A DNA stretch of 12,500 nucleotides from Patescibacteria group bacterium. Lineage in GTDB: Bacteria; Patescibacteriota; Minisyncoccia; Phycocordibacterales; PALSA-1337. The notes beneath the pieces are model-generated. The model did not search any database. It was not told where the DNA came from and saw nothing but the letters and a program-made list of their open reading frames with translations. The DNA is taken from the NCBI GenBank assembly GCA_028871265.1, contig JAGWNR010000007.1, forward strand, positions 1 to 12,500. Direction: 5' to 3'. Positions 4,429-8,800 of this stretch are shown piece after piece; position 1 is the stretch's first letter, and every line of letters begins with the position of its first letter. The position numbers were made by a program, and so were the translations under genes.

Positions 4429-4461
4429 TTCACCATTAATAAATAATTTAGTTGAAAGTCC

Positions 4462-4537
4462 ATAAAGTCTATAAAGTTCATAAAGTTAAAGGCAATGACA
4501 TTAGACTTTATAAACTTTATGAGCTCTCTAACTTTAT
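4462..4537. repeat. Repeat-built hairpin (ATAAAGT units) in the leader
   Basis: ATAAAGT occurs three times on the + strand with a 9-bp period (4462, 4471, 4480), and its complement ACTTTAT occurs three times downstream (4505, 4514, 4531). Segment 4471-4486 pairs with 4505-4520 over 16 bp with a single C-A mismatch, leaving an 18-nt loop (4487-4504). Translated, the repeat gives a 'KVHKVYKVHKV' type peptide, which explains the apparent N-terminal extension of the next gene. Confidence 0.8.
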
Positions 4538-4550
4538 AAACCAATTTTCC

Positions 4551-7325
4551 ATGAAAATATATTCATTTTGTGTACTTCTGTGTTCTTTTGTTTTAGTAGC
4601 TCCAGTTTCAACCTTTGCCGAAACGCATGTGACCAGCCTGGATACCGGTGGCCCAGTTTGGACAGAGGCCAATAGTCCTTATGTTATTGACGACTATCTC
4701 TATTTCAATCAGGCAAATCCTCTGACAATTGAGCCAGGTGTCTCTATAGTGGGAGGTTCTGATTCAAACGTGAATATTATCTTTGCCGGTTCTTCAACAA
4801 TTGCCGGTACACCAACAAAACCTATCACTTTTTCCAATCTATCACTGGTAGAAGTGTTAAACGGTACATCGACAATACAAAATGTTTCTTTCGATCACGC
4901 ACCGTTTGAGCTTCAAATCGCCACAGCAACCATGGATCATGTCACTTTTGCTAATGCGGATAAGGCCATAATTGTTCGTCGGGGTAATTTGAATGCATCC
5001 AACATCTCTATTGCAAGTTCAACCTACGGTGTGTATTCGCAATATGCCAGGCCTGTTCTAATGTATTCAAATAGTATTTTTGATCGTATTACTTCTATCT
5101 GGTCAAATTTTATTGGTAAAAAAGTTATGGCCCAAGCGGCCGATGACCCATGGCAGAGTCATGTGACTATTAATAACAGTTCGTTTGAAGATACAAAGTA
5201 TGGTGTTTACAACGAGACTATGAATGTAGTTCACGCCGAAAATAATTGGTGGGGTAGTGATGCCGGTCCTTCGACATCGGCAAATGCATCCACGAGCATG
5301 ATTTATGGACCGGTGTCGTATACGCCGTGGACGGGCAGGGCAACCAGTACTCCCAGTTGTTGCTCGAGCGTTCTTTTCATTCCCGGTCTAGAAGCCAGCC
5401 GATTGGTTCGCAATACTCGTTTAGGTCTGTCTACGACCACGGTTAAACTGTGGGAGCCGATGGATAATCTAAATGTCAGGGAACTGTTTCTGGATTCAGC
5501 CGGTCGTTCGATCCAGCCAAATATTCACCCAAACGGTTTGCTGGATAATGCTCTGGGATTTATGCCTATTTATCAAAAGTTTATCCAGACTATGAACGGT
5601 CTGGTTTCTGCAGGAACGATCGCCGAGTGGAAAGCATATCCGTACGATTGGCGCATGTCGTTAACCGATGTCTCCAGAGGTTCGATCGGCACTTCGTCAG
5701 TTATTAAAACTATTGAAAGTATGGCTTCGACATCAAAAACCGGCAAAGTGACCATCATTGCTCATTCGAACGGCGGTCTGGTCACAAAACTGGTTTACAA
5801 TGCTCTGCGTGATAGAGGGCAAGCCAATCTGGTCGACAAAATCATATTTGTAGCTGTGCCGGAATTGGGTACACCGCAGGCCGTTGCCAGTCTACTGCAT
5901 GGCGATAGTGAAGAAATTGCCGGCGGAATCGTGCTTTCTAAAAGTACAGCGCGACAGTTGGGTGTAAACATGCCCAGTGCTTATTCGCTTTTGCCCAGTA
6001 TGGGATATTTTGATCTTGTGCCGCAGACTATTATGAGTTTTGCTAGCTCTACATTGGCCGGTCTTAACTTTTCAAAATATTTTCCGACCATTACAACCTA
6101 TTCCGGTATGAAATCATTCATTACTGATAAGAGTCACGGTCAAGTTTCTGAATCAGTCAATATTCCCGTTACTGGAAATGCCAGATTTTTTCCACAGGCC
6201 GAATCAGTCCATTCTGTGCTCGATAATTGGCAACCGGCGAGTTCTACACAGTTGGTCGCTATTGCCGGTTGGGGACTGCCGACTTTGACTGGTATTGAAT
6301 ACTTTGAAAAGTTTGTATGTCAATCGATTAGTCTGTTTGGACTTGTAAAAAATTGCGGTAATGAATTGAAATATAACAAAAAAGCCGACAGCGGCGATGG
6401 CACGGTTGTCTTTCAGAGTGCGACATACTCTCCTTCGACGAAACAGCTTTTCGATATTTCCGGTTATAACAAAGATAATCACACCAATCTGGCTCATGCC
6501 GATATTTTGCAAGCCAATCAGGTTGAACAAAAAATCAAGCAAGACATTGGCGCAGCCAGTTCGTCTGCGGAAATATCTTATTTTTCCAGTAGCATACCGG
6601 CTGATTATAAATTCCCACCCAATCTAGTTATTGATGTTTATTCTCCGGTTGATATCAATGTTTATGATTCGTACGGCAATCATACCGGGCCGATTCCTAG
6701 TCCGGTGCCCGGTTCGGACCTAACCTTTTACGAAGAAAAAATTCCCGGTAGTTATTATGACGTGACTGGCGCCGGTGTAGAAGTAACACTGCCTGTTGAT
6801 CCTACACTTCAAATTAATCTTGACGGTACTGGCATAGGTGGCGTCGCTGTAGATACTAGAATTACAGATATGAATAATCACGGGGAAACCGTCGCTTCCT
6901 CGAGCTTTGATGGTATGATCGTCACGCCGATTACTCATATGGAACTAACTGTCGGCACGACCTCGAATGCCGATCCATATCAGATGATCAAAATTGACGA
7001 AAACGGTGACGGTATTTTCGATGCTACAGCCACGCCGGGTGTTATGCCAAACATTACGCCGGAAATGTATAGGCAGTCTCTCGCTGATAGTATCCGCGTG
7101 CTCAAGCTTGACCCAAGGGATGAAAGGAGGTTCCTCGATCGGCTAGATAAGGCTTGGAAATCTGGTGAAAGAAATAAAAATAGCAAGTCTGACAAAGATG
7201 ACAAAACCTGGCAAAAACTGCTAGACAAAAGAGTTCGTCATATCAATCGCAAAAATGTTAGTGACCAGAACCGCAGGGAAATGAGCGAGTTTGTCAATGA
7301 AATGCTGGATGATGCCGGGGTGTAA
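4551..7325 (+). CDS. Secreted beta-helix / LCAT-type acyltransferase (lipase) protein
   Basis: The start at 4551 gives 924 residues with a textbook signal peptide ('MKIYSFCVLLCSFVLVAPVS', cleavage likely after 'TFA'). The frame continues upstream to a TTG at 4452, but that part is coded by the ATAAAGT repeats. Residues ~25-265 look like a right-handed beta-helix, ending in 'NNWWGSDAGPS', a motif typical of such repeats. Residues ~270-665 are an alpha/beta hydrolase of the lecithin:cholesterol acyltransferase type: 'VLFIPGLEASRL' (oxyanion region), 'YPYDWR', the nucleophile elbow 'IIAHSNGGL' (Ser406), 'GDGTV' (Asp616), and His649 (or His644) as the likely triad histidine. A beta-rich region follows, then a calcium-loop-like 'DENGDGIFD' (816-824) and a charged helical tail. 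No anchor is seen, so it is probably released or held by protein contacts. A lipid or other ester substrate is inferred; it is not shown. Confidence 0.82.
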   Translation: MKIYSFCVLLCSFVLVAPVSTFAETHVTSLDTGGPVWTEANSPYVIDDYLYFNQANPLTIEPGVSIVGGSDSNVNIIFAGSSTIAGTPTKPITFSNLSLVEVLNGTSTIQNVSFDHAPFELQIATATMDHVTFANADKAIIVRRGNLNASNISIASSTYGVYSQYARPVLMYSNSIFDRITSIWSNFIGKKVMAQAADDPWQSHVTINNSSFEDTKYGVYNETMNVVHAENNWWGSDAGPSTSANASTSMIYGPVSYTPWTGRATSTPSCCSSVLFIPGLEASRLVRNTRLGLSTTTVKLWEPMDNLNVRELFLDSAGRSIQPNIHPNGLLDNALGFMPIYQKFIQTMNGLVSAGTIAEWKAYPYDWRMSLTDVSRGSIGTSSVIKTIESMASTSKTGKVTIIAHSNGGLVTKLVYNALRDRGQANLVDKIIFVAVPELGTPQAVASLLHGDSEEIAGGIVLSKSTARQLGVNMPSAYSLLPSMGYFDLVPQTIMSFASSTLAGLNFSKYFPTITTYSGMKSFITDKSHGQVSESVNIPVTGNARFFPQAESVHSVLDNWQPASSTQLVAIAGWGLPTLTGIEYFEKFVCQSISLFGLVKNCGNELKYNKKADSGDGTVVFQSATYSPSTKQLFDISGYNKDNHTNLAHADILQANQVEQKIKQDIGAASSSAEISYFSSSIPADYKFPPNLVIDVYSPVDINVYDSYGNHTGPIPSPVPGSDLTFYEEKIPGSYYDVTGAGVEVTLPVDPTLQINLDGTGIGGVAVDTRITDMNNHGETVASSSFDGMIVTPITHMELTVGTTSNADPYQMIKIDENGDGIFDATATPGVMPNITPEMYRQSLADSIRVLKLDPRDERRFLDRLDKAWKSGERNKNSKSDKDDKTWQKLLDKRVRHINRKNVSDQNRREMSEFVNEMLDDAGV

Positions 7326-7408
7326 ATTGAATCGATCACTGCTACTGTGCTGGCAAATAGAATGTTTTGAGTTATTGCGAGTAGAATTGTCTATTTTATT
7401 GCAATTGC
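7326..7408. other. Spacer after the lipase-like gene
   Basis: No terminator or gene is seen here. The only mark is the 8-bp palindrome GCAATTGC (7401-7408) that touches the -35 box of the RNA promoter. Confidence 0.4.
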
Positions 7409-7436
7409 TTGACAAAAATATCAGATTTGCTAGTCT
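7409..7436 (+). promoter_or_regulatory. Strong promoter for the structured RNA locus
   Basis: A perfect TTGACA (7409-7414), a 16-bp spacer and TAGTCT (7431-7436). The predicted start (about 7443) coincides with the first base of the closing helix of the RNA domain, which argues that promoter and RNA belong together. Confidence 0.65.
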
Positions 7437-7442
7437 CTATTC

Positions 7443-7682
7443 TAGACGGTCGGTACAAAATCGCTCAAATGCATCATGGTCCCGAACGGACTTCTTGGCA
7501 CGTGTTGAGTTTTTGTGCCGACAAAGCCCCGGGGCGCTGAAATAACTCGTGAGCGAATCCGCTTCTGGAATCGTGTCTGGTTTTGCCGGGCATTGACCTA
7601 TGAGGTGGAACTGGTTAGAGGAAAAGGGTGTTCGCAAGGATGTCCCATTCCTGTTTCCATACCGACCGTCTGTTCTTTTTAT
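7443..7682 (+). ncRNA. Unidentified structured RNA, domain 1 (~240 nt)
   Basis: AGACGGTCGGTA (7444-7455) pairs perfectly with TACCGACCGTCT (7660-7671), a 12-bp closing helix, followed by a T-rich tract (7673-7680). Enclosed hairpins: 7478-7482 with 7488-7492; 7495-7501 with 7515-7521; 7551-7555 with 7560-7564; 7596-7599 with 7603-7606. A long arm (7619-7652) is capped by a GCAA tetraloop at 7634-7637. TCGCTC (7461-7466) can alternatively pair with GAGCGA (7551-7556), a possible tertiary contact or switch. I find none of the signature sequences of RNase P RNA, SRP RNA or tmRNA on either strand, and the branched fold does not look like the rod of 6S RNA. No credible protein is coded here. Confidence 0.6.
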
Positions 7683-7690
7683 AAAAATTT

Positions 7691-7804
7691 GGTTTGACAC
7701 ATTCGTAATGTTTTACCTGCCGGAAGTTCGTGCGACAACTAATCAATCCGGAGGTGTCGGACGCTGCGTGTGTCTGAATTATACGTTTCGTTTAGTGTCA
7801 AACC
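7691..7804 (+). ncRNA. Unidentified structured RNA, domain 2 (~114 nt)
   Basis: GGTTTGACAC (7691-7700) pairs perfectly with GTGTCAAACC (7795-7804), a 10-bp closing helix. Inside, 7729-7739 pairs with 7753-7763 (nine of eleven positions) around a 13-nt loop. GTGTC occurs two further times (7754-7758 and 7770-7774), so the closing strand has alternative partners. It may be the second half of the same transcript as domain 1 or a separate RNA: a TATAAA at 7680-7685 would place a start at about 7692, but it has no good -35. A terminator follows. Confidence 0.5.
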
Positions 7805-7814
7805 TTTATTTTTT

Positions 7815-7849
7815 GAGCCGCGGCATTTTGTCTCGGCTCTTTTATTTTT
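7815..7849 (+). terminator. Intrinsic terminator ending the RNA locus
   Basis: GAGCCG (7815-7820) pairs with CGGCTC (7834-7839), followed by a ten-base stretch of T with one A. It separates the RNA locus from prfB, which has its own promoter. Confidence 0.85.
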
Positions 7850-7874
7850 AATGACAAGGTGACACCTCACACAC

Positions 7875-7903
7875 CTGACACCAGGCCTACCCTATGATAA
7901 TGT
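7875..7903 (+). promoter_or_regulatory. Leaderless promoter for prfB
   Basis: CTGACA (7875-7880), 17-bp spacer, then TAATGT (7898-7903) preceded by TG at the extended -10 position, and exactly six bases to the prfB ATG at 7910. TGACA also occurs at 7852 and 7860, that is 24 and 16 bp before the copy in the -35 box. Confidence 0.5.
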
Positions 7904-7909
7904 AAAAGT

Positions 7910-8800
7910 ATGAATAAAGAAGAAATCGCCGCGCGTATTGCCGAAATTGAAACTGCTATGAACCAGGCGGATTTTTGGGCTGACAAGCCCAAGGCGCAAG
8001 CCGCGGTCAAAGAGTTGCAAGAACTCAAGGCCGACCAAGAATCCGGTGGACCGCATGGTAAATATGATCGAGGTAGCGCTGTCATGACGATTTTTTCCGG
8101 TGCCGGCGGCGATGATGCCGAAGATTTTTCCGCCATGCTCTATCGGATGTATCAGCGCTACAGCGCCGCACAAGGCTGGTCATGGAAACTGATTCATCAA
8201 AATGAAAACGATCATGGCGGCTTTCGTAATGTGACTATTGAAATCGATGGCAAAGGCGTCTATGGCCGACTCAAAAATGAGAGCGGCGTGCATAGGCTGG
8301 TGCGTATTTCACCTTTCAATGCCAATCAAAAACGCCAGACGTCGTTTTCCATGGTCGAAGTCATTCCCGAATTCGATAAAACCAATGCCGCCGATGTAAA
8401 ATTGGAAGAAAAAGATCTGGATATTTCCATCGCTAAAGCCGGCGGTCCCGGCGGTCAAAATGTGAACAAACGTGAGACAGCAGTGCGCATCGTTCACAAA
8501 CCGTCTGGTATTTCTGTACATGTGACCAGCGAGCGCAGCCAAGCGCAGAACAAAGAAAAAGCCCTCGACATTATTCGCGCCAAACTTTATAAACAAATGG
8601 AGGACGAACGTATCGCCCATGAAAAAGGCATGTATATCTCTAAAACCACATCAATCGAATGGGGCAATCAGATCCGCTCGTACGTCTTGCATCCTTATAA
8701 AATGGTCAAGGATCATCGCACCGAGGTTGAAACTTCAAATATTGATAAAGTTCTGGAAGGAGATTTGGATATGTTTTTGGAGGCGGAGAAGGAGTTGTAA
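7910..8800 (+). CDS. prfB: Peptide chain release factor 2 (compact form)
   Basis: RF2 recognises UAA and UGA stop codons and triggers release of the finished protein. The decoding tripeptide SPF is at 134-136 (in 'HRLVRISPFNANQKRQTSF') and the catalytic GGQ at 181-183 ('GGPGGQNVNKRETAVRI'). The protein has 296 residues against about 365 in E. coli. The loss is in the N-terminal helical domain 1, where some 60 residues between 'NQADFWADKPKAQ' and 'IFSGAGGDDAEDF' are replaced by a short linker. An in-frame TAA at 7898-7900 closes the frame just upstream of the ATG, and there is no CUU-UGA shift site, so the classical autoregulatory frameshift is absent. A promoter sits six bases before the start. 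Confidence 0.95.
   Translation: MNKEEIAARIAEIETAMNQADFWADKPKAQAAVKELQELKADQESGGPHGKYDRGSAVMTIFSGAGGDDAEDFSAMLYRMYQRYSAAQGWSWKLIHQNENDHGGFRNVTIEIDGKGVYGRLKNESGVHRLVRISPFNANQKRQTSFSMVEVIPEFDKTNAADVKLEEKDLDISIAKAGGPGGQNVNKRETAVRIVHKPSGISVHVTSERSQAQNKEKALDIIRAKLYKQMEDERIAHEKGMYISKTTSIEWGNQIRSYVLHPYKMVKDHRTEVETSNIDKVLEGDLDMFLEAEKEL

Follow-up and report, generated by a model that had tools for sequence, protein, structure and literature searches.

Among the structured non-coding RNAs of bacteria, OLE, GOLLD, ROOL and raiA are large, stand-alone and of unknown role. They are several hundred nucleotides long, fold into domains with multiple branches, encode no protein, and have many homologues with covariation. 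Among the titles and opening lines of abstracts listed in a literature search, none describes such a gene, for a large structured RNA, in Parcubacteria. Here we propose a candidate: a two-domain stretch, E1/E2, upstream of prfB. It resembles the four RNAs above in size and branching, but no homologue and no above-chance Rfam match was found for it. Our best reading, held with somewhat better than even confidence, is a stand-alone non-coding structured RNA gene of about 410 nt, likely acting in trans. Since an RNA class requires homologues with covariation, E1/E2 remains an orphan candidate: a probably lineage-restricted structured RNA with a strand-specific fold, little sign of coding and no above-chance match to a known family.

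The source assembly (G000) has 654,659 bases in 123 contigs and is about 90% complete. The window, that is, the whole stretch of DNA analysed, is a host contig of 12,500 nt in which a 584-nt gap (7326–7909) separates an LCAT-domain ORF (4452–7325, 957 aa, Pfam PF02450) from prfB on the plus strand (7910–8800, ATG at 7910), whose product has the Pfam PCRF and RF-1 domains. Among the best 80 of a larger number of prfB matches, the closest named ones are from Parcubacteria/Patescibacteria MAGs, at 73% and 71% identity, and lower-ranked ones are from Taylorbacteria, Zambryskibacteria and Nomurabacteria. PrfB is 296 aa long and its N-terminal part is short, the PCRF profile being aligned only from position 93 of 194; the PrfB proteins of most relatives align across nearly all of the 296 aa.

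A putative promoter lies on the plus strand at 7409–7436. It consists of TTGACA (7409–7414), 16 nt, and TAGTCT (7431–7436), with a predicted start near 7443, the layout given by an earlier, sequence-only reading. That reading called it a consensus promoter, which is correct for the −35 box, a 6/6 match, but not for the −10 box, which agrees with TATAAT at 3/6 positions despite a TGn extension (TGC just before it, TG at 7428–7429); a stricter sigma-70 scan, demanding at least 4/6 in each box, leaves the site out. It is the only TTGACA-N15-19-TANNNT site in the window on either strand, and its predicted start coincides with the closing helix of E1. In another genome, at locus L005, the first 32 bases of the query have a blastn match that by eye also looks like a promoter: it contains TTGACA and precedes a likely gene, which weakly backs the assignment of 7409–7436 as a promoter.

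Domain E1 (7443–7672, plus strand) is predicted to have three arms closed by a helix of 13 pairs (7443–7455 with 7660–7672). The helix contains the perfect 12-bp inverted repeat 7444–7455/7660–7671 exactly as first described, extended to 13 by a U-G pair. In RNAfold, E1 has an MFE of −99.5 kcal/mol and a z-score of −6.0, with none of 500 dinucleotide shuffles as good, versus −72.6 kcal/mol and z −2.5 for the reverse complement, which 5 of 500 shuffles equalled. The mean pair probability of each helix is between 0.88 and 0.98. The model has three terminal hairpin loops, where at least four hairpins had been counted; the GNRA (GCAA) tetraloop noticed earlier caps the last arm. G-U pairs account for 14 of the 81 pairs of E1, which is not what a DNA palindrome would favour; in the comparison with inverted-repeat elements described below, the G-U share is 16% for E1 and 12% for E2. 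The GC content is 0.52 in E1, 0.33 upstream of it and 0.06 in the spacer that follows, a contrast in favour of an RNA gene. The T tract reported after the repeat is indeed there: TTCTTTTT, at 7673–7680 on the plus strand, with T at seven of eight positions, abuts the closing helix and is a possible pause site or weak terminator. By eye, TTCT flanks E1 on both sides (7440–7443 and 7673–7676), the right-hand side having an additional base. When the window is scanned for folds in fixed frames of 150 and 230 nt, E1 is not top-ranked, which we interpret as the loss of the closing helix in frames that miss one of its arms. A pseudoknot within E1, pairing the 11-nt loop 7503–7513 with 7541–7549 (GAGUU/AACUC) by a run of five Watson-Crick pairs, was dropped, as 10% of shuffles match it, or 22% when G-U pairs are admitted.

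The sequence-only reading gave the unit an extent of about 240 nt, to 7682. Instead, it appears to run on into a second domain, E2, and a terminator-like hairpin. E2 (7691–7804, plus strand) has two arms and a perfect 10-bp closing helix (7691–7700 with 7795–7804). Its MFE is −42.6, with z −4.7 and none of 500 shuffles as good, and the minus strand has z −2.4; with 100 shuffles and another seed, the values are −3.7 on the plus and −2.1 on the minus strand. E1 and E2 are both closed domains, each followed by a T-rich stretch; they share only 7-nt matches, so neither is a copy of the other. The terminator-like hairpin (7815–7850, plus strand) has a T-rich tail; the segment 7815–7852 has z −4.6 (2 of 300 shuffles as good), and E2 together with the hairpin has z −7.6 (0 of 200). 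The hairpin is the probable 3′ end of the transcript. It is absent from the listing of the terminator pattern scan, which found two sites where 1.3 were expected and lists the GCAA hairpin inside E1 (7626–7645) as terminator-like. A TATAAA at 7680–7685 stands at −10 distance from 7691, and by eye no good −35 box precedes it; E2 is therefore probably on the same transcript as E1. When 7443–7855 is folded whole, the energy is −159.7 kcal/mol (z −7.3, 0 of 100 shuffles as good), and the E1 and E2 folds are kept; like each domain separately, the whole folds strongly on the plus strand and weakly on the minus strand.

We infer transcription, the two ends and action in trans as follows. The promoter at 7409–7436 would start transcription at about 7443, and the RNA would fold into E1, a closed four-way junction, and E2, a closed two-armed domain, and would end at the hairpin at 7815–7850, giving a transcript of about 410 nt (7443–7852, plus strand). 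Should some polymerases stop at the T tract that follows E1, a second, shorter RNA of about 240 nt might also be made. The RNA would most likely work in trans, as a scaffold, a binding partner or a regulator.

The same structures could be read as the 3′ untranslated region and terminator of the LCAT gene, which ends at 7325, perhaps processed to a small RNA. No terminator-like site is listed between 7326 and 7443, so an LCAT transcript could reach E1/E2, and the hairpin at 7815–7850 would then be the terminator of that transcript. Against this, a promoter-like site intervenes between the LCAT gene and E1, and the covariance models of E1 and E2 (R2 and R1, described below) found nothing in the 11 LCAT loci from relatives that were analysed (L055–L065, flanks up to about 1,500 nt). 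We regard a 3′ untranslated region as unlikely.

How improbable is it that a promoter start, a closing helix and a T tract line up? The sequence-only reading considered the chance to be low. An inverted repeat followed by a T tract is, by itself, not unique. The same-genome control (20 of the 123 contigs, 117,780 bases, both strands) yielded one inverted repeat with arms of at least 12, spacing 80–320 and GC of at least 5, and it was without a T tract; laxer settings (spacing 60–320, GC of at least 4) yielded four. With arms of at least 10, as in E2, 32 strand-places were found there, and a T tract was present at 3. At the loci of other genomes, 1,310,366 strand-bases held 50 strand-places with arms of at least 12, of which 11 had a T tract. 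It is therefore the promoter coincidence and the strand-specific fold that carry the case for an RNA gene.

Long inverted repeats are, in fact, over-represented in the DNA analysed. Its 785,463 bases contain 63 with arms of at least 12 where about 12 would be expected under uniform composition, roughly a five-fold excess, and arms reach 45 bp; with arms of at least 17 there are 19 where about 0.01 would be expected, again under uniform composition. Nested pairs, tRNA pairs and repeats in coding stretches are all counted here, and some genomes enter twice. Some of the repeats with arms of at least 17 are tRNA-related, and perfect arms of 31–45 bp close elements of 85–251 nt at L037:3147-3397, L071:3402-3486, L029:261-476 and L013:1375-1491. 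This abundance gives some credit to the idea that E1 is a worn MITE-like palindromic insertion, whose 12-bp ends would be terminal inverted repeats and whose RNA fold would be a by-product. MITE-like elements share with E1 short terminal inverted repeats and an intergenic place, and the TTCT that flanks E1, asymmetric by one base, might be a target-site duplication. However, the counts behind the excess include the categories just named, and E1 differs from such elements in being single-copy: blastn and the E1 model find it once in the source genome, and the E2 model likewise finds only itself. Blastn of 20 source-genome contigs found no copy of E1 and, for E2, only an 18-nt match; on 40 contigs at E ≤ 0.05, it found none for either.

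Moreover, both domains fold predominantly on one strand and with G-U pairs, unlike most of 58 inverted-repeat elements used for comparison. The ratio of plus- to minus-strand energy is 1.37 for E1 and 1.42 for E2. Most of the 58 elements fold about equally well on either strand, and in our reading of the table, two reach a ratio of at least 1.37; several have a G-U share similar to that of E1/E2. Given these data, a palindromic insertion is an improbable account of E1. As yardsticks for genuine RNA genes, the 8 RNase P RNAs compared, out of 18 found, gave ratios of 1.11–1.24, all eight favouring their own strand, one tmRNA gave 0.94 and four tRNAs 0.95–1.24, all below the ratios of E1 and E2, the tmRNA and three of the four tRNAs having little or no asymmetry. 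Strand asymmetry thus supports an RNA gene, yet it is no rule for RNA genes. The strength of the fold alone is unexceptional at this spot, since many relatives also have strong folding upstream of prfB: by the fold z-score of the 500 nt upstream of prfB, the window ranks 10th of 100 loci (few shuffles each).

There is little sign that E1/E2 is coding. Four ORFs lie over it, including an 87-aa minus-strand ORF that spans E1; they score −0.172 to +0.004 bits per codon and have no Pfam match, and a fifth, which covers the −35 box only, scores 0.032. Nine genes of the window score 0.022 to 0.389 and nine shadow ORFs −0.288 to 0.211 bits per codon, so the score separates the two only in part, since their ranges overlap.

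Nor does E1/E2 match a recognized RNA family above chance, in agreement with the earlier suggestion of a structured RNA outside the known ones. A cmscan of the entire window against Rfam at E ≤ 5 gave two matches elsewhere and none in the E1/E2 stretch. The covariance-model check that had been proposed gave no significant match either: against Rfam 15 at E ≤ 10, 7320–7915 returned four chance-level matches (E 1.4–8.1, 14–19 bits versus gathering thresholds of 41–60), three of them in the terminator region (7781–7856, plus strand) and the fourth across the promoter and the 5′ end of E1 (7401–7473, minus strand). E1 on its own, plus strand had no match at E ≤ 10.

That the stretch could not be matched to RNase P RNA, SRP RNA, tmRNA or 6S RNA from sequence landmarks agrees with the Rfam and ARAGORN searches, with the proviso that the 6S model may fail to recognize 6S RNA in these bacteria: RF00013 has no match in 7320–7915, and it matched none of 21 genomes versus 5 of 14 controls. 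6S RNA is a long rod with a central bubble, whereas E1 is modelled as a closed junction with three arms and not as a rod of that type. The small SRP model RF00169 has no match in 7320–7915, and it matched none of the 21 genomes (G000–G012 and G036–G043) versus 11 of 14 controls. This fits PMC4508563, which reports that neither ffh nor ffs was found in its Parcubacteria genomes. ARAGORN finds no tmRNA in the gap, and the tmRNA sits elsewhere in the source genome (L158). It also calls no tRNA there at default settings or with -i; relaxed settings give one low-score call at -i0,600 -ps80 and three at -ps60.

A diverged housekeeping RNA, with RNase P RNA as the candidate, deserves separate comment. 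RNase P RNA class A (RF00010) is like E1/E2 in size class and in its strand-specific fold. It was found in 18 of 21 genomes at 86–150 bits, and all 12 family relatives tested have normal copies; there was no match in the source genome, in G036 (61% complete) or in G038, of the same order (96%). The absence from a genome whose tested family relatives all have it could mean that E1/E2 is the missing copy. But a source-genome copy should be recognizable, given the scores in the 18 genomes, and the RNase P models have no match in 7320–7915 at E ≤ 10. The source genome being about 90% complete, the absence is probably an assembly gap, although, to judge from the miss in G038, there can also be other reasons. 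We consider a diverged housekeeping RNA extremely unlikely.

Relatives were searched for homologues with two covariance models, R2 for E1 and R1 for E2 plus terminator. Because each was built from a single sequence (two identical copies), distant homologues can be missed. The large runs used Infernal's stricter filters. The sets comprised 53 genomes of the family, 397 of the order and, for R2, 383 of the class; they overlap and each contain the source genome, the only member of its genus (g1) among the genomes searched. The homology search called for by the sequence-only reading produced no convincing homologue in any of these sets. R2 found the source genome only among the family genomes (E ≤ 1) and the order genomes (E ≤ 0.1), and in the class set the source genome plus one weak match (G489, 16.1 bits, E 0.098). 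R1 found the source genome plus two weak matches in the family (G008, E 0.007; G035, E 0.012) and plus four in the order set. In three of these four, what aligns is the terminator hairpin plus some of the closing helix, and the 85–100-nt interior is replaced by 5–35 nt; the fourth has many broken pairs; we take all four as chance matches or terminators. Blastn of E1 against 60 genomes gave the source genome plus six matches of 16–32 nt in other genomes, and a short match at L002 has by eye no E1-like surroundings. Further searches were similarly negative: an exact-pattern scan for the E1 helix pair found none in viral and genome contigs, scans for an internal piece of E1 and for the E2 helix pair found none in viral contigs, and blastn found nothing for E1 (286 nt) in phages or for the entire 584-nt gap in plasmids.

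The searches at relatives' loci bear on another possibility, namely that E1/E2 is a two-domain leader of prfB, with attenuation at the hairpin 7815–7850. The arrangement would suit a leader, with both domains on the same strand and directly upstream of the prfB ATG at 7910, and a terminator-like hairpin in between. Even so, by eye a promoter-like CTGACA-15-GATAAT separates the hairpin from prfB (the scan does not extend to a spacing of 15 nt), the predicted fold offers no alternative antiterminator, and neither model has a convincing match at the prfB loci of relatives. R1 and R2 found nothing at loci L002–L007 and no convincing match at 91 further loci; the best R1 matches at prfB loci are one at L016 (E 0.05), which lies on the other side of the gene, and one at L112 (E 0.14), and the R2 matches at L103 and L133 (E 2.7 and 3) align the closing helix only. 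It is thus very unlikely that E1/E2 is a prfB leader.

The spot upstream of prfB is itself informative with respect to the preferred reading, a stand-alone RNA gene. ARAGORN places tRNAs, mostly tRNA-Thr, within 700 nt upstream of prfB at 58 of 99 loci, which come from two collections so that some genomes appear twice, and all 51 Rfam matches at 20 prfB loci are tRNAs. The window has no default ARAGORN tRNA at this spot. Since the same genomic spot is a site of RNA genes in relatives, it counts in favour of an RNA gene here. Counting against one are the absence of any homologue, and hence of covariation, in the genomes searched, the poor −10 box, the want of a good −35 box for E2, the TTCT flanks and the terminator-like character of the GCAA hairpin. 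A more specific proposal, that E1/E2 is a new, narrow class, a two-domain RNA of about 410 nt confined to one genus-level lineage of Parcubacteria and placed at the tRNA spot of its relatives, is one that we advance tentatively and with considerable doubt.

As it stands, a bacterium whose genome is very small, with 654,659 assembled bases, appears to retain a folded RNA of 410 nt for which the searches found no counterpart in its family. If this RNA is transcribed and conserved within the genus, it would mean that a single lineage of reduced bacteria can evolve or keep a large structured RNA of its own, and such RNAs would be invisible to searches that need many homologues.

Some further observations concern the neighbouring genes. 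In relatives (L066, L069 and other loci), genes for tRNA Thr, Asp and Met often lie directly upstream of prfB. In the source genome, no tRNA-Thr was found in the 40 of its 123 contigs examined. The 957-aa LCAT-domain protein has matches in 45 of the 53 family genomes, the source genome counted. The listed TTG start of its ORF sits at a 9-nt tandem repeat (4455–4486), and by eye the ATG at 4551, ahead of a signal-peptide-like stretch, is a better start. The plus-strand segment 4303–4562, before and at the start of this ORF, has a strong fold (z about −5.3), which is probably due in part to the tandem repeat and an inverted copy of it.
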